Below are positions 2,341 to 17,029 of a stretch of 52,133 bases of DNA, one piece after another. Position 1 is the stretch's first letter; each line of letters opens with the position of its first letter. The DNA comes from Candidatus Saccharimonadota bacterium (GTDB lineage Bacteria > Patescibacteriota > Saccharimonadia > Saccharimonadales > JAQGHD01): the NCBI GenBank assembly GCA_028288965.1, contig JAQGHD010000021.1, positions 1 through 52,133 on the forward strand. The letters run 5' to 3'. Under the pieces are notes generated by a model that saw only the letters and a program-made list of their open reading frames with translations, was not told where the DNA came from and did no database searches. Both the position numbers and the translations under genes were made by a program.

Positions 2341-2391
2341 ACCCTTTCGTCCTTTTGGACTCATCAGCAGAAATACACATTTCTGGAGGGT
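2341..2391 (-). ncRNA. Hammerhead ribozyme, type III, cassette 1
   Basis: Read on the minus strand: stem III ACCC, then UC at the cleavage site, stem I hairpin CAGAAAU-GUGU-AUUUCUG, the invariant CUGAUGAG, stem II UCC-AAAA-GGA, then CGAAA and the closing stem III strand GGGU. Every core nucleotide of the hammerhead consensus (CUGANGA, GAAA, NUH) is present. Predicted cleavage is between 2386 and 2385. It lies about 135 nt downstream of the stop of the 2524-3273 gene on the same strand, so cleavage would set the 3' end of that mRNA. Copy 6200-6250 has the same core with different, compensated stems. Confidence 0.92.
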
Positions 2392-2395
2392 ATAG

Positions 2396-2497
2396 CACAG
2401 GGCGGGAGAAGATTACGAGAGAAGAATCCGTGGGACGGATTCGATTCTTTCGTAGAGATCTTCTACAACCACCCTATGACCTAGAGACTTTCTCTAG
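2396..2497 (-). ncRNA. Structured 3'-UTR element upstream of ribozyme (cassette 1)
   Basis: On the minus strand a hairpin CUAGAGA-AAG-UCUCUAG (2497-2481) is followed by a three-way junction. P1 pairs 2478-2469 (CAUAGGGUGG) with 2405-2396 (CCGCCCUGUG); P2 is GUAGA/UCUAC; P3 contains an 8-bp stem GAAUCCGU/ACGGAUUC. The same hairpin and the same junction, with different but compensated helices, occur at 6254-6350. Conserved single-stranded bits are GGUUG before P2 and AAUC-UCUCCC before the P1 3' strand. I cannot name the motif. Confidence 0.75.
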
Positions 2498-2509
2498 GAT
2501 TTTTAGTTT

Positions 2510-2520
2510 TGCACTTCACA
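2510..2520 (-). other. 3' pairing segment, cassette 1
   Basis: On the minus strand UGUGAAGUGCA, only a few bases after the stop at 2524. It can pair with UGCACUUUCACA in the leader (4379-4368): eleven base pairs with one bulged U. See the leader entry and findings. Confidence 0.65.
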
Positions 2521-2523
2521 CGC

Positions 2524-3273
2524 TCAGAAGAGCGCTTCCAGCCGTTCGATAAGCTCTTGCAGTCGTTCGGTACCCACCAGATCGCGGATAGCCCGACGAC
2601 GCTCAGTGGACATCGGCTCGAACATCGCCAGGGGATGGTCGCTTGGACCGAGCAGCGTGCTCAGCGATGTCACCAAACTGTCGATAACAGCCGGTTCGTG
2701 GGGCGTACCGACGATGATCGGTTCGGCGCTGGCCGTCTGGTAAGTCGTTACCGGTCCGGAAGTCGACGACAAGTCCAGATCGAGCTTTTGTTCGATCGTT
2801 GCGATCAACGTGGCTCGACGCTTCTGAACCTCTGCCGCCATCTCCTTGATCATGCCATCCAGCGCGATCAACTTGTCGGAAGGCAATCGAACTGTTTCCC
2901 CCCGCAAAAGCCGGTGCACGTCTTGCTCATTCTGGTAGCCCAGACGCACTTTGACGTTTTTCAGGGTGAGTACCTGAAGCCCGAGAATCTCGGCCAAGCT
3001 GCGGTAATTCTTGGGCAGCTGAGTGAGCTCGCTGATGCGATAGCCCGCAGCCGTCAAGAAAACCGCTAACCGAAACTTTACCTCGCCGGTGGGGGCACTC
3101 GGTTTGTGAATACCACCACGGGTTTCACCCTCGCGCCAACGAAGAACCGTGTCGGTGCTCACCGAACAGGATTCGGCAATGAGGTTACGGACAGTAAGCC
3201 AGCCGGTGGGATACTTCGCCACAAAGTGATGAAAGCATACCACCACTTCACCTTCGTAGGTCCGGGGAGGCAT
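2524..3273 (-). CDS. HTH-like protein, partner of the DGQHR protein
   Basis: A 249-residue soluble protein. I start it at the ATG at 3273-3271 that overlaps the TAA of the upstream gene (TAATG), which implies translational coupling. The N-terminal part (WLTVRNLIAESCSVSTDTVLRW) looks like a helix-turn-helix, and a second segment (YRSLAEILGLQVLTLKNVKV) might be another. The C-terminal half is a long amphipathic helical region (IKEMAAEVQKRRATLIATIEQKL) followed by an acidic, helical tail. I recognise no named family. Because it is coupled to the DGQHR-domain gene and shares its promoter and ribozyme-ended mRNA, it probably acts with it, perhaps as the DNA-binding partner. GC content and codon use are higher than in flanking core genes. 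Confidence 0.8.
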   Translation of the reverse strand: MPPRTYEGEVVVCFHHFVAKYPTGWLTVRNLIAESCSVSTDTVLRWREGETRGGIHKPSAPTGEVKFRLAVFLTAAGYRISELTQLPKNYRSLAEILGLQVLTLKNVKVRLGYQNEQDVHRLLRGETVRLPSDKLIALDGMIKEMAAEVQKRRATLIATIEQKLDLDLSSTSGPVTTYQTASAEPIIVGTPHEPAVIDSLVTSLSTLLGPSDHPLAMFEPMSTERRRAIRDLVGTERLQELIERLEALF

Positions 3274-4316
3274 TATTCCGCAGCCCTTCTTTCCGCCTCG
3301 GCCCATGTCTCCAGATCACTGGACATCCAACGCCTCGTGATTTGCTCCGTAAACGTCCGGCGCATCATGTGGCGAGCGTCTTTGTCGCGCCCGAAGGCAT
3401 GGATTCGAACCGATTCACTGGAAGGGTTGATTCCGGCCAGTTGCTTACGCACCGGCGGTGCAATCTTCAGTCGGGTGCCCTCCCAGAAATAGGTGTAGTC
3501 GGCAAAGACATCGGCCAGGATGAGCATGAAGTTGTGGCTCAAGATGGTCGCGCCCTTGCGCTCTATCTTGGACAACTCCCAGCACTCCTCGAACACGTCG
3601 AAGAACTCCTCGACGTTGGCCTTGAAGCTGGCTTCGCCCACCTTGTCGATGATCTGCAGGAGGTTGGCCGCCAGTTCATCGGAACCACTGGCTTTGCCAG
3701 GACCCCAGTGACTGTGCAACCGAGCCACAATCTTGACCAGCGTGGGCGCTGACATCAAGTGCGTCGGCTTGGCCCCCTGGTCCCACGTCACTCGCTTGAG
3801 CAGCGGCCGAGACCGGTTTTCGGTGTAGCGCAACAAGATGCGCATGGCCGGGTTCGTATCTGCCAAGTTGCGCAGCTTGATGTTCGCCGACAGTTGCGTG
3901 CGATGGAAGTTGAGCAGGTCGAACTGCCGCTTCTCCCATTCGTACGTCTGGTTGACGGCAATGCTGACGCCAATTAGGGGTTCGCTCGGAGCGCCGTTCT
4001 TCATGGCCAGCTCTTTGGAACGGACACGCTGTTGGCCGTCAACGATGAAGACATCGTCTTGGATTTCAACACTGCCATCATCATGCAGCTTGAAACGGCG
4101 GCCGCGGATGTTGAGGTTGATGTCGTTAACGCGTTCACCCGCCGTGTGGGCTTCTACGAGCTCCTGGAAATTCTTCTTTTGTACCAACACTTCGCGCTGG
4201 TAGTCGTCAACCTGCAAAGCAGGCAAGCTGCTGGAGTCCACGTACCCATGGATGAACACATCGCCATCCTCAAGTTCATGGACCATGGCATGTCGAATCA
4301 CTACTTTTCCAGCCAC
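3273..4316 (-). CDS. DGQHR-domain (DndB/ParB-like) protein
   Basis: A 347-residue protein with the motif VDGQQR at about residues 92-97, followed by FDLLNFHRTQLSANIKLR. This is the signature of the DGQHR family, related to the ParB/Srx fold and to DndB of DNA phosphorothioate systems. I see none of the dnd modification genes nearby, so a DNA-sulfur role is not supported. Members of the fold bind nucleotides or DNA and often sit in defence or mobile loci. The start is GTG at 4316, chosen for the AAAAAAGGAG Shine-Dalgarno five bases upstream. It is the first gene of cassette 1 and is translationally coupled to the 2524-3273 gene. Role uncertain. Confidence 0.75.
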   Translation of the reverse strand: MAGKVVIRHAMVHELEDGDVFIHGYVDSSSLPALQVDDYQREVLVQKKNFQELVEAHTAGERVNDINLNIRGRRFKLHDDGSVEIQDDVFIVDGQQRVRSKELAMKNGAPSEPLIGVSIAVNQTYEWEKRQFDLLNFHRTQLSANIKLRNLADTNPAMRILLRYTENRSRPLLKRVTWDQGAKPTHLMSAPTLVKIVARLHSHWGPGKASGSDELAANLLQIIDKVGEASFKANVEEFFDVFEECWELSKIERKGATILSHNFMLILADVFADYTYFWEGTRLKIAPPVRKQLAGINPSSESVRIHAFGRDKDARHMMRRTFTEQITRRWMSSDLETWAEAERRAAE

Positions 4317-4496
4317 AAGGGCTCCTTTTTTCAGTGGGGACAGATGTCAGGTGACAAATTTGCCCCATGTGAAAGTGCAGCGCGTATTTAAGGACCCGGC
4401 AGTCCGTTACCGCCTCGACCGCAGTCGATTTAGCCTCCCAAATGGAAAATTTCCCAAAGGTTATATCATTATTCTATAAAATTACAGTTTAGTCAA
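4317..4496 (-). promoter_or_regulatory. Promoter and structured leader of cassette 1
   Basis: On the minus strand TTGACT (4496-4491), a 17-base spacer and AATAAT (4473-4468) predict a start near 4461. A leader of about 145 nt follows, with a small CGAC-UGCG-GUCG hairpin and the segment UGCACUUUCACA (4379-4368), complementary to the sequence right after the last stop codon of the cassette (2520-2510). A strong Shine-Dalgarno site precedes the GTG at 4316. This contrasts with the leaderless core genes. Confidence 0.75.
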
Positions 4497-4511
4497 CGGC
4501 CAGTACAAGGG

Positions 4512-6107
4512 TCAATCCTGCTCGTTTACGTCTTTCAAAGGCAGTAAATAAGCGCTCTTGTCCGCACGATACTGATTCCACTCTACCGCTGAGGGAAACA
4601 AGTAAACATTCTTGGTAGTATTTTTGCTAGAGCGTGGACTGCGGCTACGCACAACTCTACCTGCTCGCGTTAGAATGCCATATCTTACAAGCTTATTACA
4701 TAAAGCACGGGTCGATTCTTCATCAAGGCCAATGTCCTGGGCAATATCCTCAGCTTCTTTGCCTCTACCCGGATAGCGCATGGCAATAATCGCGTCCAGT
4801 ATTCTCGGTGCAAGTGACAGATCTTCGTCAGTTATGGCATTTACATCTTCTTTTTGTGGCTTAGGGTTGTCGTTAGCCTTTTTCTTTACTAACGGCGCTA
4901 CCGGCTTTTCGAGAGACACCATGCGGCTGCCTTTCTGGGCACCACTGTAAAATAAATGCTCGCCGTCAACATACTTGGCGATCATAGCCTTGGCTTCCAA
5001 ACGGCTACAGTTTTTAAACTCGGTCAGCACCCCGGTGAGTTGCGGCAAGAGCACATCTCCCGTAGATAGGGTTTCGCGGAGCACACGGAGGATTTCGTGG
5101 TCTTCTAAGTGAAGGACCTGTGCTGGTTGTGGCCGACCAATTTGCTCAATTGTCTCGGTTGGCATGGTTTTAACAGTAGGTTGGCGCCGACCTTGACGGT
5201 CAGGCATAGCAACATCAATAATCGTGCCAAAGGTTTGTTTCAAGCCAGCCTTTTTATCGATCGGGGTTGGTTCTACCGGTTCAACCGCAGCCGGTCCAAC
5301 AATCAGTTGATAAAATTCCTTTTTATTAGTACGCCCGGTAGTTTTTACTTCCCACCTGGCAGGCACCTGTACATCCCCTAGAAGGGCAAGCACTTGGTGA
5401 CGGAGTTCACTTAAGTTTTGTTTGAAGTCATTGAACTCCGAATCGCTCAAAGCCATAAACTTCCAGCTTTTTTCGCGTAAAACTGCGAGCTCAACCGGAC
5501 GAATATCTAAAGCTGCTTCTACAAAACTAAGCTGCACCTGATCAAAACCATATCGCCCAAGATGCTCTAAAATATCTAGGGTGTTAATTTCCGCTGCAGC
5601 TGCTGCCTCTTCTTCAGCCTGGCGCTCAGCTTCCTCGGCAGCTTTTTGCTCAGCGGCTTTTTGCTCGGCGGCTTGACGTCGAGCAGCTTCGCGTTCGGCG
5701 GCTTTTTCTGCCAATGGCTGGGCAAATAAGGTATCGAAGGCATTCACAGCTTGTTTGTCATAGCCTAGTTCGGCTACGGCTGACATTGATGCCGGTACAG
5801 GAAGTTGATCGGCCGGAAGTATGCCCTCAGCCGCATATTGACTCAGTCTCATAAAAGAAGTTTGTCGCTGCCGGTCTTCATCATTCATTGCCAGTGCCAA
5901 TTGGCCAAGGGCCGTATAGTTTTTGGCCAGCTTGGGATTTTTTTCTATATAGGTAAACGCTCGCTCGTAACTAGTCGCTAAAGCTGTCTGATAGGCGTCA
6001 CGATGTTCCTCCGGTGCAGCGGCACTAGCTTCTAGCACCTCGGCCATAATTTTGGCCAGGCGATCAAACTCCAAGCGATCTGGATTTATACTAGCTTCTG
6101 TACTCAC
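4512..6107 (-). CDS. Protein with sigma-associated N-domain, coiled coil and possible C-terminal winged helix
   Basis: A 531-residue cytoplasmic protein starting at GTG 6107 (AGGA upstream). Order: a helical N-terminal part (about 1-120), an Ala/Glu-rich coiled coil (AEQKAAEQKAAEEAERQAEEE), then a domain of about 95 residues (TLDILEHLGRYGFDQVQLSFVEAALDIRPVELAVLREKSWKFMALSD ... YQLIVG) shared with the sigma-like proteins at 509 and 20450. The C-terminal third (ILDAIIAMRYPGRGKEAEDIAQDIGLDEESTRALCNKLVRYGILTR) resembles a winged-helix DNA-binding domain. It lacks sigma regions 2 and 4. I infer a transcription regulator that uses the common domain to contact the same partner as the two sigma proteins. 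It lies between cassettes 1 and 2 but has core-like base composition. Confidence 0.75.
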   Translation of the reverse strand: MSTEASINPDRLEFDRLAKIMAEVLEASAAAPEEHRDAYQTALATSYERAFTYIEKNPKLAKNYTALGQLALAMNDEDRQRQTSFMRLSQYAAEGILPADQLPVPASMSAVAELGYDKQAVNAFDTLFAQPLAEKAAEREAARRQAAEQKAAEQKAAEEAERQAEEEAAAAAEINTLDILEHLGRYGFDQVQLSFVEAALDIRPVELAVLREKSWKFMALSDSEFNDFKQNLSELRHQVLALLGDVQVPARWEVKTTGRTNKKEFYQLIVGPAAVEPVEPTPIDKKAGLKQTFGTIIDVAMPDRQGRRQPTVKTMPTETIEQIGRPQPAQVLHLEDHEILRVLRETLSTGDVLLPQLTGVLTEFKNCSRLEAKAMIAKYVDGEHLFYSGAQKGSRMVSLEKPVAPLVKKKANDNPKPQKEDVNAITDEDLSLAPRILDAIIAMRYPGRGKEAEDIAQDIGLDEESTRALCNKLVRYGILTRAGRVVRSRSPRSSKNTTKNVYLFPSAVEWNQYRADKSAYLLPLKDVNEQD

Positions 6108-6199
6108 GACTCATTCCTAATTAGCCACTACTCAAAACATATACTTTACTACTTTATTGCTTATGTAGCAACATCGTGCGAAGTCTTTGTTTTTATTTT

Positions 6200-6250
6200 A
6201 AGCTTTCGTCCTTTTGGACTCATCAGCATGAATACGCATTCATGGAGCTT
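6200..6250 (-). ncRNA. Hammerhead ribozyme, type III, cassette 2
   Basis: On the minus strand: stem III AAGC, UC at the cleavage site, stem I hairpin CAUGAAU-GCGU-AUUCAUG, CUGAUGAG, stem II UCC-AAAA-GGA, CGAAA, then GCUU closing stem III. Predicted cleavage is between 6245 and 6244. Compared with the copy at 2341-2391 the stem I pairs CAGAAAU/AUUUCUG become CAUGAAU/AUUCAUG and stem III ACCC/GGGU becomes AAGC/GCUU, so pairing is kept while sequence changes. It lies downstream of the ubiquitin-like gene that ends cassette 2. Confidence 0.92.
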
Positions 6251-6253
6251 TTG

Positions 6254-6350
6254 CACGGAATGGGAGACGATTGGTATGAAGAGTGCTAAGGCACTGCAAT
6301 CCATACACAGAATCATCTGCAACCATCCCGTGACTAGAGACTTTCTCTAG
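6254..6350 (-). ncRNA. Structured 3'-UTR element upstream of ribozyme (cassette 2)
   Basis: On the minus strand hairpin CUAGAGA-AAG-UCUCUAG (6350-6334) is identical to that of cassette 1. A three-way junction follows: P1 CACGGGAUGG (6332-6323) with CCAUUCCGUG (6263-6254), P2 GCAGA/UCUGU, P3 GUAUG/CAUAC enclosing AGUGC-CUUA-GCACU. The helices differ from those at 2396-2478 but pair in the same order, while GGUUG and AAUC-UCUCCC are kept. Confidence 0.75.
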
Positions 6351-6357
6351 GTTTTTG

Positions 6358-6366
6358 TAAGACGAG
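6358..6366 (-). other. 3' pairing segment, cassette 2
   Basis: On the minus strand CUCGUCUUA, just after the stop of the Ubl gene. It is the exact complement of UAAGACGAG in the leader of the same cassette (9433-9425), about 3 kb upstream. Confidence 0.7.
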
Positions 6367-6382
6367 GGGTCAGTGGGCTGTC

Positions 6383-6628
6383 TTAGCCGTTGATCACCTT
6401 GCCGACGACGACGAGCACGCTGTTGGCGGTCACCTCGTCGGTCGGAGCTGCCGGCGCGCCGTTGAGCGTTACCACCTGACCAGCCACCAGCCGAACATTG
6501 GCTCGGTCCAGGGCCTCCTGCACAGTGACGCCCGGCTCGTAATCGAGCGTTACGGTGTCACCGGCCAGTTGGGTAACGCGAATGACTTGTGCTTCGGCGG
6601 CTTCTTCGATGGTAGGTTCAGTAGTCAC
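6383..6628 (-). CDS. Ubiquitin-like beta-grasp protein (MoaD/ThiS/PRTRC-C-like)
   Basis: An 81-residue protein, the last gene of cassette 2. After a short acidic N-terminus the pattern is strand (QVIRVTQLAG), strand (TVTLDYEPG), helix (TVQEALDRANV), strand (QVVTLNGAPA) and a last strand ending VLVVVGKVING. The 'LNG' turn and C-terminal glycine are typical of MoaD/ThiS-type and prokaryotic ubiquitin-like proteins, whose terminal Gly is adenylated by an E1. Here the tail is NG rather than GG. Immediate neighbours are E1-, JAB- and E2-like genes, as in PRTRC and other bacterial Ubl operons, which favours protein conjugation over sulfur carrying. Translation starts at ATG 6628 with an AAGGAG-like site upstream. 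Confidence 0.8.
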   Translation of the reverse strand: MTTEPTIEEAAEAQVIRVTQLAGDTVTLDYEPGVTVQEALDRANVRLVAGQVVTLNGAPAAPTDEVTANSVLVVVGKVING

Positions 6629-6681
6629 GATTTCTCCTTGTTGGGTTCGTTTCGGTGTGGTCTAACTGTAATCACCTGTGA

Positions 6682-7353
6682 TCAGGCGGCCGCGAATTGC
6701 ATGGCTTTGAGGTGAGCGGTGAGATTGAGTTTGTAGGCCTCCTCTCGCAAGAAAAGCGTGAGCTGAGCCACCATGAGGTTGGCTAGTACGCCGGCGGGAT
6801 GGATAACTGTCCGAGCTGCGCAAGGCAATTCCATGCCTTCCGAGTCCGGAAACAGCCACTTCTCGTAGAACTCTGTCTCGTCGAAATTCGACGGGTTCAC
6901 GCAAAGCAACTGTAGTTGCTCGCCACCGATTCGTCCGTCCAAGTAGAACGGCACCAAGGGGTTGTACTTGACCGCCTCCCAGATGTCCGACCGACTCGAC
7001 ATGGAATCGACACAACTGAATACGACGCCCTCCAGAGCGGTCTCAGAAGTAACGTACTCCTCGTGCTGGACGACCTTGCAGTCGGCCTCTTGGCGTTCGA
7101 GGAAGTGCATCGCCGCTTCCACCTTGTTCAGACCCACGTCACTGGGACGATAGATCAATTGCGCAGGGATGTTGTGTGGTTCGACCGCATCGTGATCCCA
7201 CAGGTGAAGTTGGCTGACGCCGAGCTTGACCAACGGGTAGAGCAACGCGCTCCCGATACCACCGACACCAATGACATGCACTGGCCAGGTGAACTTATCG
7301 GGATCGAAGATCGCCCGTTGATCGCGGTAGTCAACATTCAGTCGGCTTCCCAT
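6682..7353 (-). CDS. E1-like ThiF/MoeB-family adenylating enzyme
   Basis: A 223-residue E1-like enzyme. A Rossmann ATP-binding loop GVGGIGS lies at residues 29-35, acidic residues WDHDAVEPHN at 52-61, and CVDSMSSR carries the conserved Asp at about 116. Cys178 in LPCAARTVIHPAG is in the position of the E1 catalytic cysteine. The Arg of the usual NxxRQ motif is replaced (NIPAQ), and the zinc-binding Cys pairs of MoeB/ThiF are absent, as in the short E1 enzymes of bacterial ubiquitin-like operons. It should activate the C-terminus of the Ubl encoded 53 bp downstream and hand it to the E2-like protein. It overlaps the JAB gene by 16 bp. Confidence 0.85.
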   Translation of the reverse strand: MGSRLNVDYRDQRAIFDPDKFTWPVHVIGVGGIGSALLYPLVKLGVSQLHLWDHDAVEPHNIPAQLIYRPSDVGLNKVEAAMHFLERQEADCKVVQHEEYVTSETALEGVVFSCVDSMSSRSDIWEAVKYNPLVPFYLDGRIGGEQLQLLCVNPSNFDETEFYEKWLFPDSEGMELPCAARTVIHPAGVLANLMVAQLTLFLREEAYKLNLTAHLKAMQFAAA

Positions 7354-7970
7354 GGAAGAATCTCCTCTCCACGTAGCGCCGCATGGACATTGTCGTTAGT
7401 CGGTTTGACGTGATTTTGTCGCATGAACCGACGCGGCTGACGCACCTTAGCGGCAACTTCGATTCGACACTCTGCAGCTAACCGCTCATCGACCACCGAA
7501 ACAACCTTGAGCTCGAGCGGAGTCCAGGTTCGGAACGGACGAAAAACGTCCAGTCTGAGCTCGTATTCGCCTAGCTTGTTGGTCACCATGCTGACCATCC
7601 AGTCAGCTGTGTACGCCTCGATGTTGGCCATGTCGGTACCGGAGAAAAACGCCGGCATACGAACATGTGAGTGCCACTGGAAACGCATCCGTGCCGTGTC
7701 CTCGCCCTGCAGGACCATGTCAGTAATGAAACGACCGAGTGCTATTGGGTCGATTTCTACCGCAGCGGGTTCGGCGGTTTGCTCGAGAATGAAGATGTTG
7801 CTCAGCTGGAGCTGATTTCCCAACCGATCGATCATCCCAAACCCGTTGATCTCCACCGGACAGGCCTGCACATACGCCATGATCTTCTGCCACATCTGGT
7901 ATGGCATGATCAGTGTCGGTGTCGGCATGAACCCCGCGGTTGCCTGATGCATTCCGGATTGATAGGTCAC
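7338..7970 (-). CDS. JAB/MPN+ metalloprotease (deubiquitinase-like)
   Basis: A 210-residue protein with a complete JAMM zinc motif: Glu40 (VEINGFG), His100 and His102 in HSHVRMPAFFSGTD, Ser110 and Asp113, giving H-x-H-x7-S-x2-D exactly. JAB peptidases of Ubl operons trim the Ubl precursor or remove it from targets. The Ubl here ends at its Gly, so no maturation is needed and deconjugation is the more likely role. It overlaps the E2-like gene by 4 bp (ATGA) and the E1 gene by 16 bp, so all are translated from one mRNA. The arrangement resembles PRTRC protein A and the JAB of Bil-type systems. Confidence 0.88.
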   Translation of the reverse strand: MTYQSGMHQATAGFMPTPTLIMPYQMWQKIMAYVQACPVEINGFGMIDRLGNQLQLSNIFILEQTAEPAAVEIDPIALGRFITDMVLQGEDTARMRFQWHSHVRMPAFFSGTDMANIEAYTADWMVSMVTNKLGEYELRLDVFRPFRTWTPLELKVVSVVDERLAAECRIEVAAKVRQPRRFMRQNHVKPTNDNVHAALRGEEILPWEAD

Positions 7971-9507: not shown

Positions 9508-9519
9508 TGGGGTTAGCTT

Positions 9520-12201
9520 CTAGCGGAAGCGAATGACGTGTTCGTCGGAGAGATCGCCAGAGACGTCGGCAGACGGCGTCGGATAATGTGAATTTATTGG
9601 AGAGGTTTGCTCGATTGGATGGTCGCTGGTTTTCTTTTTGCGGCGTCGAGTGCGTTTGCGTTTAGGTTTTGGCTCCTCCGAGCCGTTTCCTGAGGGGTGG
9701 CCAGGAGTTATGGAAGCAGGAGTTTCGGGAATTACCTTATTCAATCGATTGCTTATTTCTATCACGAACTGGCTTGGGGTTTGGGGCTTGGCTGGTAGGG
9801 CAGCGCTCGGCGTTGATTTTGATGGTTGCGAAGGGGCTTCCGTAGGAGTGGCCGGTGTAGTCGGGGCGCCGCGGTTGGCATCATCGGGTCGGGGCGCCCG
9901 CGGGCGAGTTGGGCGGACTGGCTCGAGCTTTGGTGTGCCGACGTAGCGCTCTTGGACAAAACTTTCTATGTCTGCTCGATTAACAGCGTAGGTACGGCGA
10001 GTGTGTTCGATAATCTGGGGGCTGTAATCGGTAGGGGCCGGCGGCAAATCCAGGGTAGTGGCCGAAAAGGCTTGGGCTTTTTCGCCCTCAATGGTCATGC
10101 TAATGGCAAAATGGCGGTTGTGCATGTGCACCAGGTCGTATTCTAAAAAGTTCGGCTCAAAGTACTTCATCATGGTGCGGGAATCGTCAGCGCTCATACG
10201 AAAACCAATGATCGAGCCAACGTTACCAAACACGGCGTCCTTGACGGTCATGTCCATCTGGGCAATGTACTGGTTGGCGACAGTTAAGTTGAGGCCGTAC
10301 TTGCGAGCCTCGGATAGAATAGTGGCAAAGGACTCCGTGGCAAAGTTCTGGAATTCATCCACATAGAGGTAGAACGGATGCCGCTCTTCAATGCCAATGT
10401 CGGCCCGGCTCATGGCCGCCAGCTGGATTTTGGTTACCAGCAGGGCACCCAGTAGTGCGGCGTTGTCTTCGCCAATCAGCCCGCGCGACAGGTTTACAAT
10501 CAAAATTTTGCGCTCATCCATGATTTTACGGATATTAAAGCTGCTCTTGGGCTGGCCAATAATGTTGCGCACCGTCGGATTAGCCGTAAAGGCGCCCACC
10601 TTGTTTAATACCGGCGCCACGGCTTCGGCGGCGAATTTATCGTTCCAGCTGGCAAATTCTACGGTCCAGAAGTTTTTGACCACTGGGTCTTGCACGTAGC
10701 TGAGCACCTCGTTGCGGAATTTCTTATCGGTTAATATGCGCGTAATGTCCAGCATGGTGGCCTGCGGGTAGTCGAGTAGCGCCAACAGACTGTAGCGCAA
10801 AATGTATTCCAGGCGCGGGCCCCACGACTCAAACATGCGCTTCAGCACACCGATGAGCTCAGAGGTGGTGTGAGTCTTGAGCTTTTCGTCGTAGACTTCC
10901 ATGGGGTTAAAGGCAATCGGAAAGTCAGTGTCAGCCGGGTTAAAATATATAACGTCTTTGATACGATCTTCTGGTATCCGGCGCAAAATGTTCAGCGCGT
11001 AGTCACCATGTGGGTCGATCACCGCAAAGCCGTAGGGATGATCAATTTCCGAGATGGTCAAAAGCTCTAGCAAGGCCGATTTACCGACACCGGTCTGTCC
11101 AATAATGTACAAGTGCCGGCCGCGGTCTACCCGGGGCATACCAAACATGGTGTTATGTCCCCGGAAGTTAGTAACGGCAATTGGGCTGACCAAATCACGC
11201 GTAGCCTCTGTTACCAGCGGCAAATTAGCCGGCGGCTCAGCTGTTTTGGCGCTGGCCCACAAAATGTTGGGCGTTTCCACGTTGGTATGCGGCAGGTGAT
11301 ATAAACTCGCCAGTTCTTCAATGTTACAAATCAGGCCCTTACTCTCAAAGGCACGAGCGTGATACTGATGAATAAAGTGATTGCCGGTGCCCAGGTACTT
11401 CAGTACAAAGCCGTTTAAGTAGGTACCATTGAACTGCTTAAAGCTGGCGCCAATAGCCTGGATGCGCATGCGGGCTTGAGCCTCGGTGCCGTGGCCCCGG
11501 TAAATAATGCGGATCTTGGTTTCATAAGCTAGTTTGTGGCTTTTTTCTTCGGCAGCACTGGCTCGGGCCGTGTCAAACTCGGTCAGCTTGGGCGGCGCAG
11601 CGGCCGTCGGCGAGGTCGATAAAATCTTAAGCAGGTTAGTTGAGCCGCCGCGTTTTTTGGCCACATATTTTTCACTGCTTTTATACCAATTGTCTTTGGC
11701 CGGACGGATCAGCACCTGCAGCCAGGCTTCCTCGTTACCTTCAAACTGGGCCAGACCGGCGGTAATAGCAGCCAGCGGGTCAACCTCAAAGCTGGGAAAC
11801 GTCCTCAGCGGTAAGGCATCGTCTGCTGTAAAGCGCAGCTCGGCCGATAGCTGTGAGGTGTAATCGCTCGACGGCACAGCATAGTCCACCACTTCGCTAA
11901 TGTTCACCTCTGGGTACTGGGCATAAATCTGCTCCTCTACAAAAGCTTTCAGATGTTCCGGCACCCACACATAGAAGCAAATGCGCTTGTTTTGGACAGC
12001 TATTTCAAAGCTGAGCGTGTCGCGCAGCGCCGCTTGAAACATTTTTTTCTCTGAGCTCAGGAGGCCGTGCAAGCTGGCAAACATTTGCTCAGCAGCTAGT
12101 TCCTTCTTTTCGTTGGTGCGCGGAATCTGTAGGAGCAGGACAACGCCATCGGGTCGGAGGGGTGGGGAAGCAGCAAGGCTACGCCGCAGGGGATTTTGCA
12201 T
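9520..12201 (-). CDS. VirD4/TraG-like type IV secretion/coupling ATPase
   Basis: An 893-residue P-loop ATPase. I start it at ATG 12201 (MQNPLRRSL), ten bases after a TATAAT on the minus strand, rather than further upstream. The first ~400 residues form a mixed domain seen with type IV secretion ATPases. Then come Walker A IIGQTGVGKSALLELL, AVIDPHGDY, Walker B FYLYVDEFQNF, and the VirD4/TraM-recognition pattern NQYIAQMD. The C-terminal ~140 residues are Pro/Thr-rich and end in a Lys/Arg tail (KPKRKRTRRRKKK). Proteins of this kind in CPR genomes are thought to power pili or export of DNA or protein at the membrane. No other T4SS gene is in this window. It sits between cassettes 2 and 3, with core-like promoter style. 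Confidence 0.8.
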   Translation of the reverse strand: MQNPLRRSLAASPPLRPDGVVLLLQIPRTNEKKELAAEQMFASLHGLLSSEKKMFQAALRDTLSFEIAVQNKRICFYVWVPEHLKAFVEEQIYAQYPEVNISEVVDYAVPSSDYTSQLSAELRFTADDALPLRTFPSFEVDPLAAITAGLAQFEGNEEAWLQVLIRPAKDNWYKSSEKYVAKKRGGSTNLLKILSTSPTAAAPPKLTEFDTARASAAEEKSHKLAYETKIRIIYRGHGTEAQARMRIQAIGASFKQFNGTYLNGFVLKYLGTGNHFIHQYHARAFESKGLICNIEELASLYHLPHTNVETPNILWASAKTAEPPANLPLVTEATRDLVSPIAVTNFRGHNTMFGMPRVDRGRHLYIIGQTGVGKSALLELLTISEIDHPYGFAVIDPHGDYALNILRRIPEDRIKDVIYFNPADTDFPIAFNPMEVYDEKLKTHTTSELIGVLKRMFESWGPRLEYILRYSLLALLDYPQATMLDITRILTDKKFRNEVLSYVQDPVVKNFWTVEFASWNDKFAAEAVAPVLNKVGAFTANPTVRNIIGQPKSSFNIRKIMDERKILIVNLSRGLIGEDNAALLGALLVTKIQLAAMSRADIGIEERHPFYLYVDEFQNFATESFATILSEARKYGLNLTVANQYIAQMDMTVKDAVFGNVGSIIGFRMSADDSRTMMKYFEPNFLEYDLVHMHNRHFAISMTIEGEKAQAFSATTLDLPPAPTDYSPQIIEHTRRTYAVNRADIESFVQERYVGTPKLEPVRPTRPRAPRPDDANRGAPTTPATPTEAPSQPSKSTPSAALPAKPQTPSQFVIEISNRLNKVIPETPASITPGHPSGNGSEEPKPKRKRTRRRKKKTSDHPIEQTSPINSHYPTPSADVSGDLSDEHVIRFR

Positions 12202-12549
12202 ATGTTTTATTATACCTGGTTTTAATATAGTTATTATACTATAAATCCTTATATTTATCAATATGCTAATCAATCCTTTTGCATTTTTACAACTTTTATT
12301 AAATAACTTGTATTTTATTGACATCAGCAGTAAAATATGGACACCTAACCAAAGGTGAGGAACATTCATCCGCGAGGAGAAATAGTTAATCCCAAATGGT
12401 CGGCGTACCCACTGTAGGTCCGTTAAGGTGCTAAGGCACTCCAGCAGACTTCGGCGGGGGAGTTATTTAACAGATCGCACTGCAAAACACAGCTAAAGCC
12501 AAGAGGACTCTTCGGGGTCTTGTTACCGCCTCAATGTAAGGAGCTAGTC
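12202..12549 (+). promoter_or_regulatory. Promoter and structured leader of cassette 3
   Basis: TTGTAT (12308-12313), 17 bases and TAAAAT (12331-12336) predict a start near 12343. The leader of about 205 nt begins with hairpin CACC-UAACCAAA-GGUG (12342-12357). It later holds GUUAUUUA (12462-12469) and, five bases on, UCGCACUGCA (12475-12484), the complement of 14716-14725 behind the last gene. A hairpin with a UUCG loop (about 12500-12525) precedes UAAGGAG and the ATG at 12550. Bases 12202-12300 are AT-rich and hold the minus-strand promoter of the ATPase gene (TATAAT at 12214-12209). Confidence 0.75.
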
Positions 12550-14220
12550 ATGAGCAGAAGCAGGAAAGTATTCCTGTTACCTCTGGTCATTACGCTGCTC
12601 GCTGTAGCAATGAGTTCGGCCAGTATGCAGGCAAGCGCAGACAGCGCAACTGCTACAACACCGACCACAGCGTCGACAGCCGGAACACCACCCGCCCCGC
12701 AGGCAACATCAGCCTGCATTTCCCAGCCAGTCCCCACCACAGCTGATACCCCGTTTACCACCGACACGCAACAACGCGTACAGGCGGCCCAACGAGCGGT
12801 ACCAGCCGAGTTCAAATCGGAAATGCCGCCTAGCAATCCGGCCGCACCCCTGTCGGCTACGACACACCTCCCGGCCACCCTGAACGAACCCGTCGTTCTG
12901 TCTGGCTTGGTGGCGGTGCAGCTACAAGGAACACGAGCTGGAGCCGCTCAGGCATCCAACCGGGCTCAGAAGCTGTTCGCCAATGGTTTGTCCAACACGG
13001 ACGTCGTTGTTGAACAGGGAGATGACACCGTACGGACCAGTCTGGTGCTTAACAACGCTGGCGCACCCCGCCAGTTCCAATTCTCGTTTGCGCCGATTTG
13101 CGCCGACGGGAAGAGCACCAGCCCCAATACGATCCACCTGGAACAGGGCCGCGACGGCAACGTTCAGGTGATTTCGGACAACGGGCTCGATGAACACGCT
13201 ATTGGCGTGGCGTACAAGCCGTGGGCAGTTGACGCCGTCGGTAAGCGTTTGGCAACATCGTATCGAATCAGCGGCAACACGCTGACTCAACGTGTCGATG
13301 TCAAGAACGCGGTATTCCCGGTGGTCGCTGACCCGACCTACTACGCCATGACCTGCGACGCCGGGTACTACACGTCTGCGTCGGCAGATCAGTTCGTGGA
13401 CTTCGGGTACTGCCCAGTGTGGGCCTGGTTCTATGCCGCAAGGGGATATACTCCCGTGCGCGCCTACGCTCCCCACATCTACAACGACCGCAAGTACGTC
13501 TACGTTGACCAGGGAGGCGACTGTTCACATGCTCCTGACACAGGACTGAATTTCGATTTCTCGGTTCCGTGTCGAGCCCACGACTACTGCTATGACCTGC
13601 TCAGAGCGGCCATGGGTGGCGTCGTAAAGTCAGCGTGCGACAATCTTTTCCTCGCGCTGATGAACGATGACTGCAACGACCGTACCTTTCCTGGTACTGG
13701 TGCCGCCTGTCGGTTCATTGCCAAAACGTACTACGACGCTGTCGGATTGGTCGGCAGCCCGGCGAAATTCAATTCGCCTTACCTGCACTTGGTGGCGTCG
13801 CACAGTAGTAAGTGTGCCGACATCAACAACAAGAACGGTGGAGCAGTCCAGTCGTTTGCGGTACTCCAGCAGTACGGCTGCTCGGGAGGTAGCAACCAGA
13901 CCTTCCGGTTCTTCAAGTACGACAACGCCGGCACCTACACCATCCAGTCGCTGATAAACACCGGCAACTGCTTGGCGCGGGACTGGAACAAGTACAGCCA
14001 GGAATGGATTATCTGGACGGAATACTGCACAGCACTTCGCTCCGTTGCGAACTCCATCTGGAGGCCGCGGGGCATCAACTACCACAACCAGTATTCCATC
14101 TTCCTGTCCGGGCAATTGGTGTGCTGGGATGTGCCGTACTCCTCGTTGTTCGACGAAGTGTGGATAATCACTTATCCATGCTCGGAGACCAGCAACGAGG
14201 TTTGGTACATGAGACGTTAA
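12550..14220 (+). CDS. Secreted phospholipase A2 with ricin-type lectin domain
   Basis: A 556-residue exported protein. ATG 12550 is preferred because TAAGGAG lies seven bases upstream and a signal peptide follows (MSRSRKVFLLPLVITLLAVA...ASA). A Thr/Ala/Pro-rich stretch and a ~200-residue unknown domain come first. Residues about 325-385 contain VPCRAHDYCYDLL: His344-Asp345 flanked by Cys341 and Cys347 is the catalytic signature of the prokaryotic/fungal phospholipase A2 family. Many further cysteines suggest disulfides. The C-terminus (about 410-555) has ricin-B-like features (KCADINNKNGGAVQ ... NQTFRF, NCLARDWN), a sugar-binding fold. It should hydrolyse phospholipids outside the cell after glycan binding. 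For an epibiont this would suit attack on, or feeding from, a host cell. GC-rich, Actinobacteria-like codon use. Confidence 0.8.
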   Translation: MSRSRKVFLLPLVITLLAVAMSSASMQASADSATATTPTTASTAGTPPAPQATSACISQPVPTTADTPFTTDTQQRVQAAQRAVPAEFKSEMPPSNPAAPLSATTHLPATLNEPVVLSGLVAVQLQGTRAGAAQASNRAQKLFANGLSNTDVVVEQGDDTVRTSLVLNNAGAPRQFQFSFAPICADGKSTSPNTIHLEQGRDGNVQVISDNGLDEHAIGVAYKPWAVDAVGKRLATSYRISGNTLTQRVDVKNAVFPVVADPTYYAMTCDAGYYTSASADQFVDFGYCPVWAWFYAARGYTPVRAYAPHIYNDRKYVYVDQGGDCSHAPDTGLNFDFSVPCRAHDYCYDLLRAAMGGVVKSACDNLFLALMNDDCNDRTFPGTGAACRFIAKTYYDAVGLVGSPAKFNSPYLHLVASHSSKCADINNKNGGAVQSFAVLQQYGCSGGSNQTFRFFKYDNAGTYTIQSLINTGNCLARDWNKYSQEWIIWTEYCTALRSVANSIWRPRGINYHNQYSIFLSGQLVCWDVPYSSLFDEVWIITYPCSETSNEVWYMRR

Positions 14221-14232
14221 GAAAGAGGAGAG

Positions 14233-14664
14233 ATGCTCGACGAATTGAAACATCGGCCCGGCAAGGCATTCCTTGCAGGGATAATCGCTACCGTGATCGG
14301 CTGGATAGCCCTCACCCTGGTGTGGTGGAAGGACAGCAAGGCTGGTTTGCTAATCGGCCTGGTGCTCGTCCTGGCTTGTGTAGGTGGAAAGCTGACAAGC
14401 ACTCGTCGCTGGAGCGGCTTCTGGTTCTTGACCAGCAGTTTGGTTACCCACCTACTCTTGTTCACTCTGAGTATTCAGCTCACCCACCCCGGCGACGGAC
14501 TGTGGATCATCGGGCTGATACTCCTAGCAGGCGGTGCCGCTGTGATGTACGCTGTCGCGTTCGTTATTGGTGGAAGCTTCTCCAGAACTGGCAAGAGCCA
14601 GTCCGTGACGAGTAGACCACCCCACGACAACGACTTGCTTCCAGGTAGGCCGCGGCGACGCTAA
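14233..14664 (+). CDS. Four-helix membrane protein downstream of phospholipase
   Basis: A 143-residue protein starting at ATG 14233 behind GAAAGAGGAGAG, only 12 bp after the phospholipase stop. It has about four hydrophobic segments (AFLAGIIATVIGWIALTLVW, AGLLIGLVLVLACVGG, a third around FWFLTSSLVTHLLLFTLSI, and WIIGLILLAGGAAVMYAVAFVIG) and a basic, polar tail. No family recognised. Co-transcription with a secreted lipase, in the same order as the secreted/membrane pair of cassette 4, suggests protection of the producer's membrane or help in export. This is inference from position only. Confidence 0.75.
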   Translation: MLDELKHRPGKAFLAGIIATVIGWIALTLVWWKDSKAGLLIGLVLVLACVGGKLTSTRRWSGFWFLTSSLVTHLLLFTLSIQLTHPGDGLWIIGLILLAGGAAVMYAVAFVIGGSFSRTGKSQSVTSRPPHDNDLLPGRPRRR

Positions 14665-14715
14665 CCGAGTAACCAGCAATGGGGCGGTCCTGTCAAGGAT
14701 GACGGGAAACAGTTA

Positions 14716-14725
14716 TGCAGTGCGA
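14716..14725 (+). other. 3' pairing segment, cassette 3
   Basis: UGCAGUGCGA, exact complement of UCGCACUGCA in the leader at 12475-12484, lying just before the terminal hairpin. Confidence 0.7.
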
Positions 14726-14728
14726 AGC

Positions 14729-14812
14729 AATAAGAGTGAGAGCGGGCGAATGTGTCGAGGGTCGCAAACAGCGATCAAACCCTCGGCACATTCCGCCCGC
14801 AATCCTCTTATT
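14729..14812 (+). ncRNA. Long 3'-UTR hairpin of cassette 3
   Basis: AAUAAGAG pairs with CUCUUAUU at the ends, then GCGGGCG/CGCCCGC, GAAUGUG/CACAUUC, CGAGGGU/ACCCUCG, and CGC/GCG around a short loop. A five-base bulge AUCAA (14774-14778) interrupts the 3' arm near the top. It is not followed by a U-tract, so it is not an intrinsic terminator. The ribozyme starts where it ends. A hairpin with the same top and bulge position occurs at 16112-16185. Confidence 0.85.
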
Positions 14813-14885
14813 AATTTGATCAACGAATAGCACCAATAAGGTGAAGAGTCGTTCTGATGAGCTGTATACAGCGAAATCAAATTTA
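14811..14885 (+). ncRNA. Hammerhead ribozyme, type III, cassette 3
   Basis: Stem III UUUGA/UCAAA (14815-14819 with 14877-14881, extendable by two A-U pairs), cleavage triplet AUC with the cut after 14821, stem I AACGA/UCGUU with internal loop AUAG/AAGAG and distal CACC/GGUG, core CUGAUGAG at 14854-14861, stem II CUG-UAUA-CAG, then CGAAA. All conserved core bases are present. The stem I internal loop and the stem II loop are placed for the loop-loop contact known to speed natural hammerheads. Confidence 0.93.
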
Positions 14886-14932
14886 TAATCTAACCCATAA
14901 ACTTGCGTTGTTATAATTATTATTAAATAGTA

Positions 14933-15174
14933 TTGACATTAGCTATCTATTAGGTATAGACTTCGCTTGACACACCTACGTGAGACATTCTCACTTGATG
15001 AAAGGAAAGAAAAGTTTCCGTACGGCGCAGTCACCCATCTGGGAAAGACGTGAGGCTTACATAGCTGACACTTTTCCTAGAAGGAGTTATTTACCAGACT
15101 GCTAACTGAATTTCCTGCAATGCCCACCTTGGGAATGCTTGTTCAAGCATTCCATCCGCCTCTAAGGAGGGGCA
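14933..15174 (+). promoter_or_regulatory. Promoter and structured leader of cassette 4
   Basis: TTGACA (14933-14938), 16 bases, TATAGA (14955-14960); start near 14967. The ~205-nt leader has GUGAGA-CAU-UCUCAC (14980-14994), GGAAA/UUUCC, GUUAUUUA (15086-15093) followed after five bases by CUGCUAACU (15099-15107), which complements 16052-16060, and a perfect 10-bp hairpin GGAAUGCUUG-UU-CAAGCAUUCC before AAGGAGGGGC and the ATG at 15175. Bases 14886-14932 between ribozyme and promoter are AT-rich with nothing else visible. Confidence 0.8.
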
Positions 15175-15696
15175 ATGTCCAAAACCAAGCTGATCCTGGC
15201 CGCCCTTGTGGTTGCCATGGTCGCATCCGTTGCGGCACCCGCCGTTGCGGCAACCCCCAAGCACCAAACGCCCAGCATGCCCATCATGTCTGCGCAGCAA
15301 GCCAAAGAGCTCGTTGCTGCCAGCAACGCTGCCCTCAAGGCCTCGCCTCACGCTGCAGCACTTGTTGCTGTTCGCGACGCGGCCCTGAACGTGGCTCAGA
15401 ACACCGGTTCCGGTGCTACTCCACTGATGGCCAAGCACTGTGCCTGGGCCGAGTGCTCGTACTACTTCAACCGAAACGAGACGTGGAAGATCTCGCACGC
15501 CGGCCTCGTCGGAGTGGCAGTCTTGGCATTCTTGCCCGGCCCGCTGAAGCTCCTGGCCATCGCGGTCTTCGCGTACATCGTCTACGTCGCGGACAAAGCC
15601 GTGCACGATCACAAGTGCATCAAGCTGAACTTCCTGGTGTGGCCGACCTACTCGCTCATCGGCGTGTACGAGTACCTCACCTATCACTGCTGGTAA
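15175..15696 (+). CDS. Small secreted protein, possible bacteriocin-like effector
   Basis: A 173-residue protein with a clear signal peptide (MSKTKLILAALVVAMVASVAAPAVAA) and strong AAGGAGG site. The mature N-terminal half is helical and Ala-rich. The second half begins KHCAWAECSYYFNRNETWKI and continues with a hydrophobic stretch (GLVGVAVLAFLPGPLKLLAIAVFAYIVYVAD) and two late cysteines. A Cys, a Tyr/Phe-Asn-Arg-x-Glu-Thr segment and a glycine-rich hydrophobic hairpin resemble small exported proteins of Actinobacteria that I recall as uncharacterised, some suspected bacteriocins. The following gene encodes a tiny membrane protein, an arrangement typical of toxin/immunity pairs. Function not proven. 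Confidence 0.75.
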   Translation: MSKTKLILAALVVAMVASVAAPAVAATPKHQTPSMPIMSAQQAKELVAASNAALKASPHAAALVAVRDAALNVAQNTGSGATPLMAKHCAWAECSYYFNRNETWKISHAGLVGVAVLAFLPGPLKLLAIAVFAYIVYVADKAVHDHKCIKLNFLVWPTYSLIGVYEYLTYHCW

Positions 15697-15735
15697 CAGC
15701 AACCCGGAGGTCTAACCACCAGATCGGAGAAAGAA

Positions 15736-16002
15736 GTGTCGATCACGTTGCTGTGGATGGTTCTCGCCGCAGTTGCGGGTTTCGGCTTGTTTGCCGTTGC
15801 CTTGTGGCTAAAGCGTCAGGGAGTTAACCCGGTTCTTGCGCATGTCGCCGTCGCTTTCTCAGTCCTTGCGATCGGATGTGTGCTGTACATACAAGGGTTC
15901 TTCAACCAGGACCGTGCCAGTCTGTACACGATGGCCTTTGTCGCTGGCGCCCTTACGTGCGAAACATGCGCGTGGAAGCGTCAACGAGCGGGGTCACAGT
16001 AG
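15736..16002 (+). CDS. Small membrane protein, putative immunity partner
   Basis: An 88-residue protein from GTG 15736 with GGAGAAAGAA upstream. It has three hydrophobic segments (TLLWMVLAAVAGFGLFAVALWL, VLAHVAVAFSVLAIGCVLYI, and a shorter ASLYTMAFVAGALTC) and a basic end. No family recognised. It is 39 bp after the small secreted protein and shares its mRNA. By analogy with bacteriocin operons it could protect the producer, but this is only positional inference. Confidence 0.65.
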   Translation: MSITLLWMVLAAVAGFGLFAVALWLKRQGVNPVLAHVAVAFSVLAIGCVLYIQGFFNQDRASLYTMAFVAGALTCETCAWKRQRAGSQ

Positions 16003-16051
16003 GAGTTCATACGACTTCGGTCGCGTAGCGCCTACTGGGCACAGAAAGCAA

Positions 16052-16060
16052 AGTTAGCAG
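16052..16060 (+). other. 3' pairing segment, cassette 4
   Basis: AGUUAGCAG, exact complement of CUGCUAACU in the leader at 15099-15107. Confidence 0.7.
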
Positions 16061-16111
16061 AAAGTTTGAGCGAGCCGCCCCAGTCAAGGCCTTGGCCTTG
16101 GCACTCGCTCA

Positions 16112-16185
16112 GAAGGGCGCGGGCGGGAGTTCCGAGGGTCGCATACGCGATCACACCCTCGGTTCATCCCGCCCGCTATCCCTTC
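16112..16185 (+). ncRNA. Long 3'-UTR hairpin of cassette 4
   Basis: GAAGGG/CCCUUC, then GCGGGCGGGA/UCCCGCCCGC, CCGAGGGU/ACCCUCGG and CGC-AUAC-GCG, with bulge AUCAC (16150-16154) in the 3' arm, the same place as AUCAA in the hairpin at 14729. A separate hairpin UGAGCGAG/CUCGCUCA lies just upstream (about 16067-16111). The ribozyme follows directly. Confidence 0.85.
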
Positions 16186-16256
16186 GCTCGAATAAACGAA
16201 TAGCACCTAATAAGGTGAGAAGTCGTTCTGATGAGCTGTAAACAGCGAAATCGAGC
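16186..16256 (+). ncRNA. Hammerhead ribozyme, type III, cassette 4
   Basis: Stem III GCUCGA/UCGAGC (16186-16191, 16251-16256), stem I AACGA/UCGUU with distal CACCU/AGGUG and internal loop AUAG/AGAAG, CUGAUGAG, stem II CUG-UAAA-CAG, CGAAA. The expected cut follows AUA at 16194. One extra A (16192) lies between stem III and the cleavage triplet compared with the other copies. This could slow cleavage or be accommodated as a bulge. Confidence 0.88.
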
Positions 16257-16276
16257 TTAAGATAAAAAGCTATGTA

Positions 16277-16405
16277 TTGATGTGATTAAGTAACTTATCA
16301 CATATTTTTGCTGTCTAGTAATCTTTGTTGATTAACTTGCTTTTTTATACACAAGAGAGTATGTTAAACATAGCCCAGCGTATCTGGGGTACGAAAGGGG
16401 AAGCC
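16277..16405 (+). promoter_or_regulatory. Promoter/operator region and leader of cassette 5
   Basis: TTGATG (16277-16282) with CATATT 18 bases on, or TTGTTG (16325-16330) with TATACA 15 bases on, could serve as promoters; neither is as good as in the other cassettes. The first overlaps an imperfect inverted repeat TGTGAT...ATCACA (about 16280-16301), a possible operator. Bases 16257-16276 hold nothing recognisable. I find no long-range pairing segment here. Confidence 0.45.
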
Positions 16406-16774
16406 GTGCGCTTCTCAGTCCAAAAGATCGTTGCTTCGGCAGCGATTATCGGGTGCATCGCCATAGGCGGCGCAAGTACAGCAATGGCAAGTGTTGCCAC
16501 CAGCCACAAGGCAGTGGTGACCAGCCAGGGTTGCGTGGTCCAGCGACCGACTTTCTGCAGTGTGGCGTTTACCGCTCAGCAGACGAGCCAGATGGCCCAG
16601 AATCCACAGACCACTCGGCGAGTGATTCTCAGCCTCGGGTTGCCCAGTCGGTTCGAGACTCCGTTACTCCTCAACGTCGACCGCATTTACGACGCGGCGC
16701 GCAAGGCAGTTGCCATGCACAAAGCGCTCTTTGCAGCGGTCGCCGGCCACACGGTCTACCTCCACTTCAGCTGA
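16406..16774 (+). CDS. Small secreted protein, cassette 5
   Basis: I start this at GTG 16406, behind GAAAGGGGAAG, giving 122 residues with a signal peptide (MRFSVQKIVASAAIIGCIAIGGASTAMA). An upstream ATG at 16361 in the same frame has no ribosome site. The mature protein is short (about 95 residues), with CVVQRPTFCSVAFTAQQTSQM near its start. The pattern Cys, six residues, Cys-Ser-x-x-Phe-x-x-x-x-Thr resembles CAWAECSYYFNRNETWKI of the cassette 4 protein, so the two may be distantly related exported effectors. No partner membrane gene follows. No family recognised. Confidence 0.65.
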   Translation: MRFSVQKIVASAAIIGCIAIGGASTAMASVATSHKAVVTSQGCVVQRPTFCSVAFTAQQTSQMAQNPQTTRRVILSLGLPSRFETPLLLNVDRIYDAARKAVAMHKALFAAVAGHTVYLHFS

Positions 16775-16874
16775 AGTGATGATCACGCGGGGCGGCGTGC
16801 TCAGAAATGACCGTACAACGGGCCAATTGACTAAGGTCCTTAAGTCGAATTCATCGACACAGCGTCAGCGAGAC

Positions 16875-16950
16875 GAGGCAACGGGTGGGGAAGTCCTTAG
16901 TTGATTCGCTTACTAGCGAATAAACTTGGATCACTCCACCCGTTAGCCTC
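16875..16950 (+). ncRNA. Long 3'-UTR hairpin of cassette 5
   Basis: GAGGC/GCCUC and AACGGGUGG/CCACCCGUU form the base, with an upper stem AUUCGCU-UACU-AGCGAAU. A GGAUCAC segment lies in the 3' arm where AUCAA/AUCAC bulges occur in the hairpins of cassettes 3 and 4. No U-tract follows; the hammerhead does. Confidence 0.75.
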
Positions 16951-16955
16951 TCTCA

Positions 16956-17029
16956 TATCGATAAACGAATAGTGCCCATCCCATAGGGCAAAAAGTCGTT
17001 CTGATGAGCTGTAAACAGCGAAATCGATA
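16956..17029 (+). ncRNA. Hammerhead ribozyme, type III, cassette 5
   Basis: Stem III UAUCGA/UCGAUA (16956-16961, 17024-17029), cut after AUA at 16963, stem I AACGA/UCGUU with internal loop AUAG/AAAAG and distal UGCCC/GGGCA, core CUGAUGAG at 17001-17008, stem II CUG-UAAA-CAG, CGAAA. The distal stem I helix is wholly different from CACC/GGUG of the other plus-strand copies yet pairs fully, strong support for a conserved RNA. Confidence 0.93.

Follow-up and report, generated by a model that had tools for sequence, protein, structure and literature searches.

Type III hammerhead ribozymes and long hairpins downstream of accessory genes in a Saccharibacteria-like genome

Five hammerhead ribozymes in accessory cassettes

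Contig JAQGHD010000021.1 of the Candidatus Saccharimonadota assembly GCA_028288965.1 (52,133 nucleotides (nt), called the window here) carries five accessory gene cassettes, two on the minus strand and three on the plus strand. In each, one or more genes are followed on the coding strand by a long imperfect hairpin and then by a hammerhead ribozyme (HHR; Table 1). A first-pass annotation, made from the sequence alone, had described the five HHRs and proposed that their self-cleavage makes mRNA 3′ ends. Here we examine these ribozymes, the hairpins that accompany them and the evidence that bears on such a role.

The type III HHR core was intact at all five sites (CUGAUGA, GAAA, U16.1, and C or A as H17). 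Reading and scanning of the sites placed in each a stem II whose loop has four bases, then GAAA, together with an NUH cleavage site, and stem III is open, as in type III. Stems I and III are clean in four of the copies; the one at 16188–16254 needs an extra A, a one-base bulge, in stem III. Stem II had been called constant, which is incorrect: the minus copies have GUCC/GGAC there and the plus copies have GCUG/CAGC. Stem I of the three plus copies contains an internal loop and an extra distal helix. We refined two sets of plus-strand coordinates (14813–14883 and 16188–16254), and the cleavage positions given in the annotation agree with those predicted by the model (Table 1).

To score these sites, we used a covariance model, R1, built from 24 loci that included four of the five window copies. 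All five copies scored 50.7–71.8 bits, among them the copy at 16188, which was absent from the training set. An Rfam search of the window at gathering thresholds returned a tRNA and no hammerhead. Searching with RF00008 (Hammerhead_3), a check that the annotation had suggested, recovered the two minus copies, both with sub-gathering scores. The window copies resemble RF00008 in their core nucleotides, three helices, open stem III and NUH site; they differ from it in being sub-gathering or unfound, in being tied to gene 3′ ends and in usually having a long upstream hairpin.

Chance occurrence was assessed with sequence patterns. CTGATGAGN10CGAAA matched the 916-kb genome eight times, a reversed-pattern control not once, and CTGATGAGTCCN4GGACGAAA, with up to three mismatches allowed, was found in 0 of 100 window shuffles. 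Two core-pattern matches in a 100-genome set resemble recA coding sequence, which suggests that chance matches do occur. Across the three helices of the R1 loci, 96.4% of cells were paired, a figure that leans upwards because the training loci were picked for the presence of stems I and III. Double changes were seen in 13 of 15 pairs, and the covariation score was 0.925, against 0.29 when shuffled and at most 0.14 with slid partners. In an independent set picked by the 23-nt core alone, stems I and III were present in 109 of 120 loci. These results support the annotation of all five elements as type III HHRs.

Table 1. Positions of ribozymes, hairpins, genes and terminator-like sequences of the five cassettes in the window. 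R1, covariance model described in the text; MFE, minimum free energy; ORF, open reading frame; aa, amino acids.
Feature	Cassette	Position	Strand	Basis
HHR, type III	1	2341–2391	−	predicted cleavage after 2386; R1 71.8 bits; RF00008 38.9 bits, E 2e-5
HHR, type III	2	6200–6250	−	predicted cleavage after 6245; R1 71.8 bits; RF00008 32.2 bits, E 0.0015
HHR, type III	3	14813–14883	+	predicted cleavage after 14821; R1 57.0 bits; stems
HHR, type III	4	16188–16254	+	predicted cleavage after 16194; A bulge in stem III; R1 50.7 bits, E 1.4e-11
HHR, type III	5	16956–17029	+	predicted cleavage after 16963; R1 57.6 bits; stems
Long hairpin	1	2396–2478	−	fold; MFE z −6.8 for 110 nt before cut
Long hairpin	2	6254–6332	−	fold; z −4.6; aligns with cassette 1 module behind unrelated gene
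Long hairpin	3	14729–14812	+	fold; z −11.0
Long hairpin	4	16112–16183	+	fold; z −8.8
Long hairpin	5	16870–16954	+	fold; z −9.4
Gene adjoining HHR, 260 aa, no family	1	2524–3306	−	ORF; no Pfam match
Gene, 347 aa, weak GmrSD_N	1	3273–4316	−	Pfam E 0.00059, below cut-off
Genes: 81 aa, ThiF/E1-like 223 aa, JAB-like 210 aa, 456 aa	2	6383–9337	−	Pfam, PADLOC
Gene, 566 aa, phospholipase A2-like and ricin-type lectin	3	12520–14220	+	PF09056 E 6e-10, PF14200 E 2e-7
Second gene, 143 aa, no family	3	14233–14664	+	ORF; no Pfam match
Genes, 173 aa and 88 aa, no family	4	15175–16002	+	ORFs; no Pfam match
Gene, 149 aa, no family	5	16325–16774	+	ORF; no Pfam match
Terminator-like hairpin, opposite strand, 3′ region	1	2480–2498	+	scan; common to cassette 2
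Terminator-like hairpin, opposite strand	2	6334–6350	+	scan

A hairpin–hammerhead module behind unrelated genes

The anatomy of these elements was compared over 125 distinct HHR loci, taking as the upstream fold segment the 110 nt that end at the predicted cut. This segment had a median minimum free energy (MFE) z score of −4.46, with 88% of loci below −2, whereas random places had a median of −0.19 and the downstream 110 nt one of −0.71. The hairpin was replicated in the core-only set, with 72% of loci below z −2. It is typically about 85 nt long and lies 5′ of the HHR in most loci; in the window it measures about 70–85 nt. The sense RNA hairpin was more stable than the antisense one in 85 of the 125 loci (p 6e-6), random segments being without bias, which argues for selection on the transcript. 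The elements also have a preferred place: in 105 of the 125 loci the 350 nt upstream contain the end of a sense open reading frame of at least 100 amino acids, whereas the figure is 29% for random places and 42% for the antisense strand, and the median distance from stop codon to HHR is 103 nt.

Comparison of the 150 nt upstream of each HHR yielded 80 similar pairs. Twenty-seven were intra-genome, and in just one of these 27 were the upstream proteins similar. This similarity usually sets in some 85 nt from the HHR on its 5′ side; on the 3′ side, the adjoining 150 nt are seldom similar. Cassettes 1 and 2 have a common module behind unrelated genes, and cassettes 3 and 4 have another version of the module in common. 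In the commonest hairpin family, found in several genera, the basal helix ends about 2 bases from the cut, G·U pairs are conserved, and the consensus fold comprises hairpin plus HHR. By these sequence comparisons, hairpin and HHR are parts of one portable, predicted 3′-end module that is reused behind unrelated genes. The hairpin as part of the module had escaped the annotation, as had the spread of the module in Patescibacteria and the 5′–3′ complementarity of sister loci described below.

In a subset of loci the 3′ arm of the hairpin overlaps stem III, with an energy gain below −1 kcal/mol in 45 of 125 (p 8e-5), so that hairpin and ribozyme would there exchange a strand. We rejected the broader idea that the hairpin always reaches into stem III in competition with the ribozyme; it holds for the subset only and not for most window copies. 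Two HHR-less loci found by a hairpin model, L300 and L309, have at the usual place of the HHR what the sequence suggests is an intrinsic terminator.

Complementary 5′ leaders and 3′ ends in related cassettes

A conserved 3′ arm of the hairpin, RTCTGCTTGTCA, is the exact complement of TGACAAGCAGAY, which occurs in 5′ leaders, 3′ of a promoter and a small hairpin. We counted 50 occurrences of GACAAGCAG in 0.75 Mb, against 5.7 expected, a count that includes the antisense of 3′ arms. In a word-free test, the 110 nt that precede the cut were compared with the sequence 300–2600 nt upstream, and the longest exact complement was taken for each cassette. It reached at least 12 nt in 37 of the 125 cassettes (4 and 1 in two controls) and at least 13 nt in 31 (1 and 0 in the controls). 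The 3′ word mostly ends 7–11 nt before the cut, adjoining stem III.

We defined a pairing class by a word of at least 11 nt that ends 7–15 nt before the cut. Of its 35 members, 16 have the common word and the remaining 19 share 18 other words between them, and thus complementarity is kept while the sequence changes. For the 19 cassettes with other words, the cassette's own leader beat every other leader in 15 and tied in 4. Specificity of this kind was also seen within single genomes; in that of the window, for example, the complements were 14 and 13 nt with the own leader and 7 and 6 nt with the other. In six cassettes (L069 twice, L072 twice, L077_9368 and L071_7718), the leader word seems to hold a Shine–Dalgarno-like purine run no more than 5 bases from a start codon. 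A second set, from other genomes, showed complementarity in 5 of 77 loci (0 and 0 in controls). Loci chosen by a hairpin-only model that ignored HHR and leader showed it too, their words having changed (to TGACAAGTAGAT and TGACAAGTGAACA, for example). Because hairpin and pairing are present in several loci in which the HHR is absent, the ribozyme appears to be one way to make the end and not essential to the architecture.

A search of the five window cassettes gave no convincing pairing word: the longest candidates, a 10-nt word of cassette 3 (TCGCACTGCA) and a 9-nt word of cassette 2 (TAAGACGAG), both lie 5′ of the hairpin. Three other copies in the same genome (in C15 and C30) do have a pairing word, which in one of them, L009_12995, has one mismatch.

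Some of the 5′ leaders gave weak full-length matches to RAGATH-10 (RF03147), an RNA whose function Rfam gives as unknown: L064 18127–18205 (−), L065 12151–12226 (−), G179:C4:186181–186263 (+) and G000:C15:68588–68650 (−). All are below the gathering score of 41.2 bits, the best reaching 33.5 bits in a relative, and positions 1–18000 of the window had no match at E ≤10. RAGATH-10 is not described in the literature that we searched as the 5′ part of an HHR-ended mRNA, and the leader context may give a home to this unexplained RNA.

We think it rather probable, with less assurance than for the HHRs as makers of 3′ ends, that these cassettes represent a class of mRNAs with matched ends. In such a message the 3′ end would be self-cut and capped by the hairpin, and a word in a structured 5′ leader would be the exact complement of the segment just before that end. 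The words would be gene-specific with the pairing kept, the HHR would be one way to make the end, and the message could close on itself, sometimes covering its own Shine–Dalgarno sequence.

Proposed self-cleavage and its alternatives

Considering the position, strand and reuse of the module, we propose that the five elements are type III HHRs that end accessory-cassette transcripts, with a probability of about three in four. The transcript would read through the stop codon and fold the long hairpin; the HHR would then fold and cut the RNA some 3 to 12 nt beyond the hairpin, and the resulting mRNA would have a hairpin-capped 3′ end with a 2′,3′-cyclic phosphate. In a large subclass of relatives, which includes other copies in the same genome and excludes the five in the window, the finished mRNA could pair its two ends, since the stretch before the cut is complementary to its own 5′ leader. 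Such pairing may control ribosome access or stability; it may close the message, cover the ribosome site or give protection from nucleases.

The role in 3′-end formation put forward by the annotation is in part borne out, in that position and orientation, hairpin and module reuse all point to it; cleavage in the cell is what we infer from them. It is also consistent with the infrequency of intrinsic terminators at gene ends in these loci and with the distribution of Rho: in the 26 genomes of the order that bear HHRs and were searched, no Rho scored over the NCBIfam cut-off, and weak matches look, by length and position, like ATP synthase subunits. The annotation had further noted that the cassettes have no intrinsic terminator. 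Our scan likewise found none on the sense strand in the five 3′ regions of the window, an observation that says little because genes in these loci seldom end in one, whether or not an HHR follows (10 of 125 HHR genes and 37 of 248 others; 10 and 16 in shuffles).

Several observations weigh against this proposal. Absent terminators separate HHR genes from others poorly. No window copy reaches the RF00008 gathering score of 48.5 bits, and the three plus copies are not matched by that model at all. The stem III bulge of the copy at 16188 also counts against it, as do the five window copies as a group, which have no convincing match between leader and 3′ word. Some cassettes keep the hairpin and have no HHR. 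Finally, the statistical tests count related loci as separate.

The alternative that survives best, which we consider unlikely, is phage-like polycistronic processing, in which an array would be one RNA cut into gene-length mRNAs, as proposed for prophage HHRs. Perreault et al. (2011; PMC3088659) described prophages in which individual genes have several HHRs beside them and suggested a role for these in mRNA processing, and the statement in the first-pass annotation that bacterial hammerheads are known singly is therefore wrong. The exact core is present on 34 IMG/VR contigs (L121–L154), and HHR arrays beside single genes are found in the window (in tandem at 14813–17029) and in G141, G244, G529 and G570. 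However, many HHRs have no second copy in the same genome, and cassettes in several loci come with a promoter and leader of their own. The viral copies differ, with a stop-to-HHR distance that is often about 30 nt and a weaker upstream hairpin (median z −1.87). Matches to PHROGs are also few among 116 upstream proteins, in an analysis in which prophage borders were not mapped. The likeness to the prophage clusters thus lies in several HHRs beside individual genes and the suggested cutting-out of gene-length mRNAs, whereas the loci described here are accessory loci of Patescibacteria with diverse genes, few phage matches, a homologous hairpin and, often in relatives, 5′–3′ complementarity.

Integron-type mobile cassettes are an improbable explanation, in which the hairpin would be an attC-like site read as single-stranded DNA and the HHR a passenger. 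The resemblance is one of layout: unrelated genes are each followed by a related imperfect hairpin module in directional, head-to-tail arrays, with a spacing of mostly 0.6–1.4 kb, and a genus relative does not have a cassette at the corresponding position. No dedicated integrase is apparent, however. Genomes of the order mostly have one and nearly always one or two tyrosine recombinases, whose IntI-type identity was not tested; G057, with 5 HHRs, has none that we found and G011, with 7, has one, both genomes being incomplete. The bias of the hairpin towards stability as sense RNA, in an analysis that did not search for attC core boxes, also speaks against a DNA site, as do the promoter and leader that many cassettes have of their own and the intact ribozyme core.

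Slightly less probable again are retroelement-like cassettes, in which the HHR would trim an RNA intermediate destined for reverse transcription into DNA and the leader and 3′ words would serve as a primer site or as terminal repeats. Retrozymes and related elements contain hammerheads, and complementary words in inverted orientation do lie near both cassette ends. Extension of the word pairs by G·U or A·C, which would distinguish RNA pairing from DNA inverted repeats, showed no difference (34 versus 32) and so does not favour RNA. Nevertheless, no reverse transcriptase was found in the genome of the window, and RVT_1 was absent from 20 of the 26 HHR-bearing genomes. The words, moreover, lie in the 5′ leader, with the Shine–Dalgarno-like run before the start codon in the six cassettes named above, and the conserved promoters are outside the leader word.

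Circular mRNAs, whose ends would be held by 5′–3′ pairing and then ligated, would suit the complementary ends and the 5′-OH and cyclic-phosphate ends that tandem HHRs would give, but we rejected circularization by RtcB and hold this reading to be very improbable, as RtcB was absent from all 61 genomes of the order tested (9 of 14 control genomes were positive). Together, the lack of RtcB, the general lack of reverse transcriptase and the presence of mostly one tyrosine recombinase favour self-cleaved 3′ ends over RNA ligation, retro-mobility and integron recombination.

Distribution and relation to known hammerheads

The genome that contains the window has nine HHR copies in 916 kb: the five described here, two in C15, one in C30 and one in C25. 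The motif was present in 96 of 393 genomes of the same order, with at most 14 per genome and frequently one, and a phylum-wide draw gave matches in 33 of 333 genomes. Across 84,980 named species genomes, the exact 23-mer core occurred in at least 116 stretches, and among the 80 matches listed nearly all that were named belong to Saccharibacteria, Parcubacteria and other Patescibacteria. The exceptions among those 80, a Polynucleobacter bin (L169) and Smithella SCADC (L228), both have the exact core and may be contaminants, binning errors or cases of transfer.

Bacterial HHRs are already known, as are their clusters by single prophage genes with a proposed processing role (PMC3088659), and the role of bacterial hammerheads has been called an open question (PMC6155905). 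Within the literature searched, no paper linked self-cleaving ribozymes, hammerheads included, to Saccharibacteria, Patescibacteria or the candidate phyla radiation (CPR). As far as the searched literature shows, the portable hairpin–hammerhead 3′ module, its spread through Patescibacteria and the gene-specific 5′–3′ complementarity are new, and the last of these would be an unreported bacterial mRNA architecture. Because the HHRs stand at a defined place behind diverse accessory genes, in many genomes of a bacterial group whose tested members have no Rho, a role as 3′-end makers is directly testable.

Genes and base composition of the cassettes

The genes upstream of HHRs are diverse: the 116 proteins have just 20 Pfam families, almost all seen once. 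In cassette 2 of the window, ThiF was matched with E 1.8e-22, Prok-JAB with E 2.3e-4, below its cut-off, and a PADLOC E1–E2 model with E 1.3e-11; the gene set resembles a ubiquitin-like conjugation or defence set. The phospholipase A2-like and lectin protein of cassette 3 is possibly secreted. The terminator-like hairpins on the opposite strand of both minus cassettes perhaps stop convergent transcription.

GC content at third codon positions (GC3) was 70% in the 105 HHR-upstream open reading frames of the 125 loci, compared with 51% in other frames of the same loci (p 4e-23). A single foreign high-GC donor is unlikely, because the GC content of cassette genes follows that of their locus (r 0.75) with an offset of about 6–10 points. 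The high GC3 may reflect selection that acts on the message or on codon usage.

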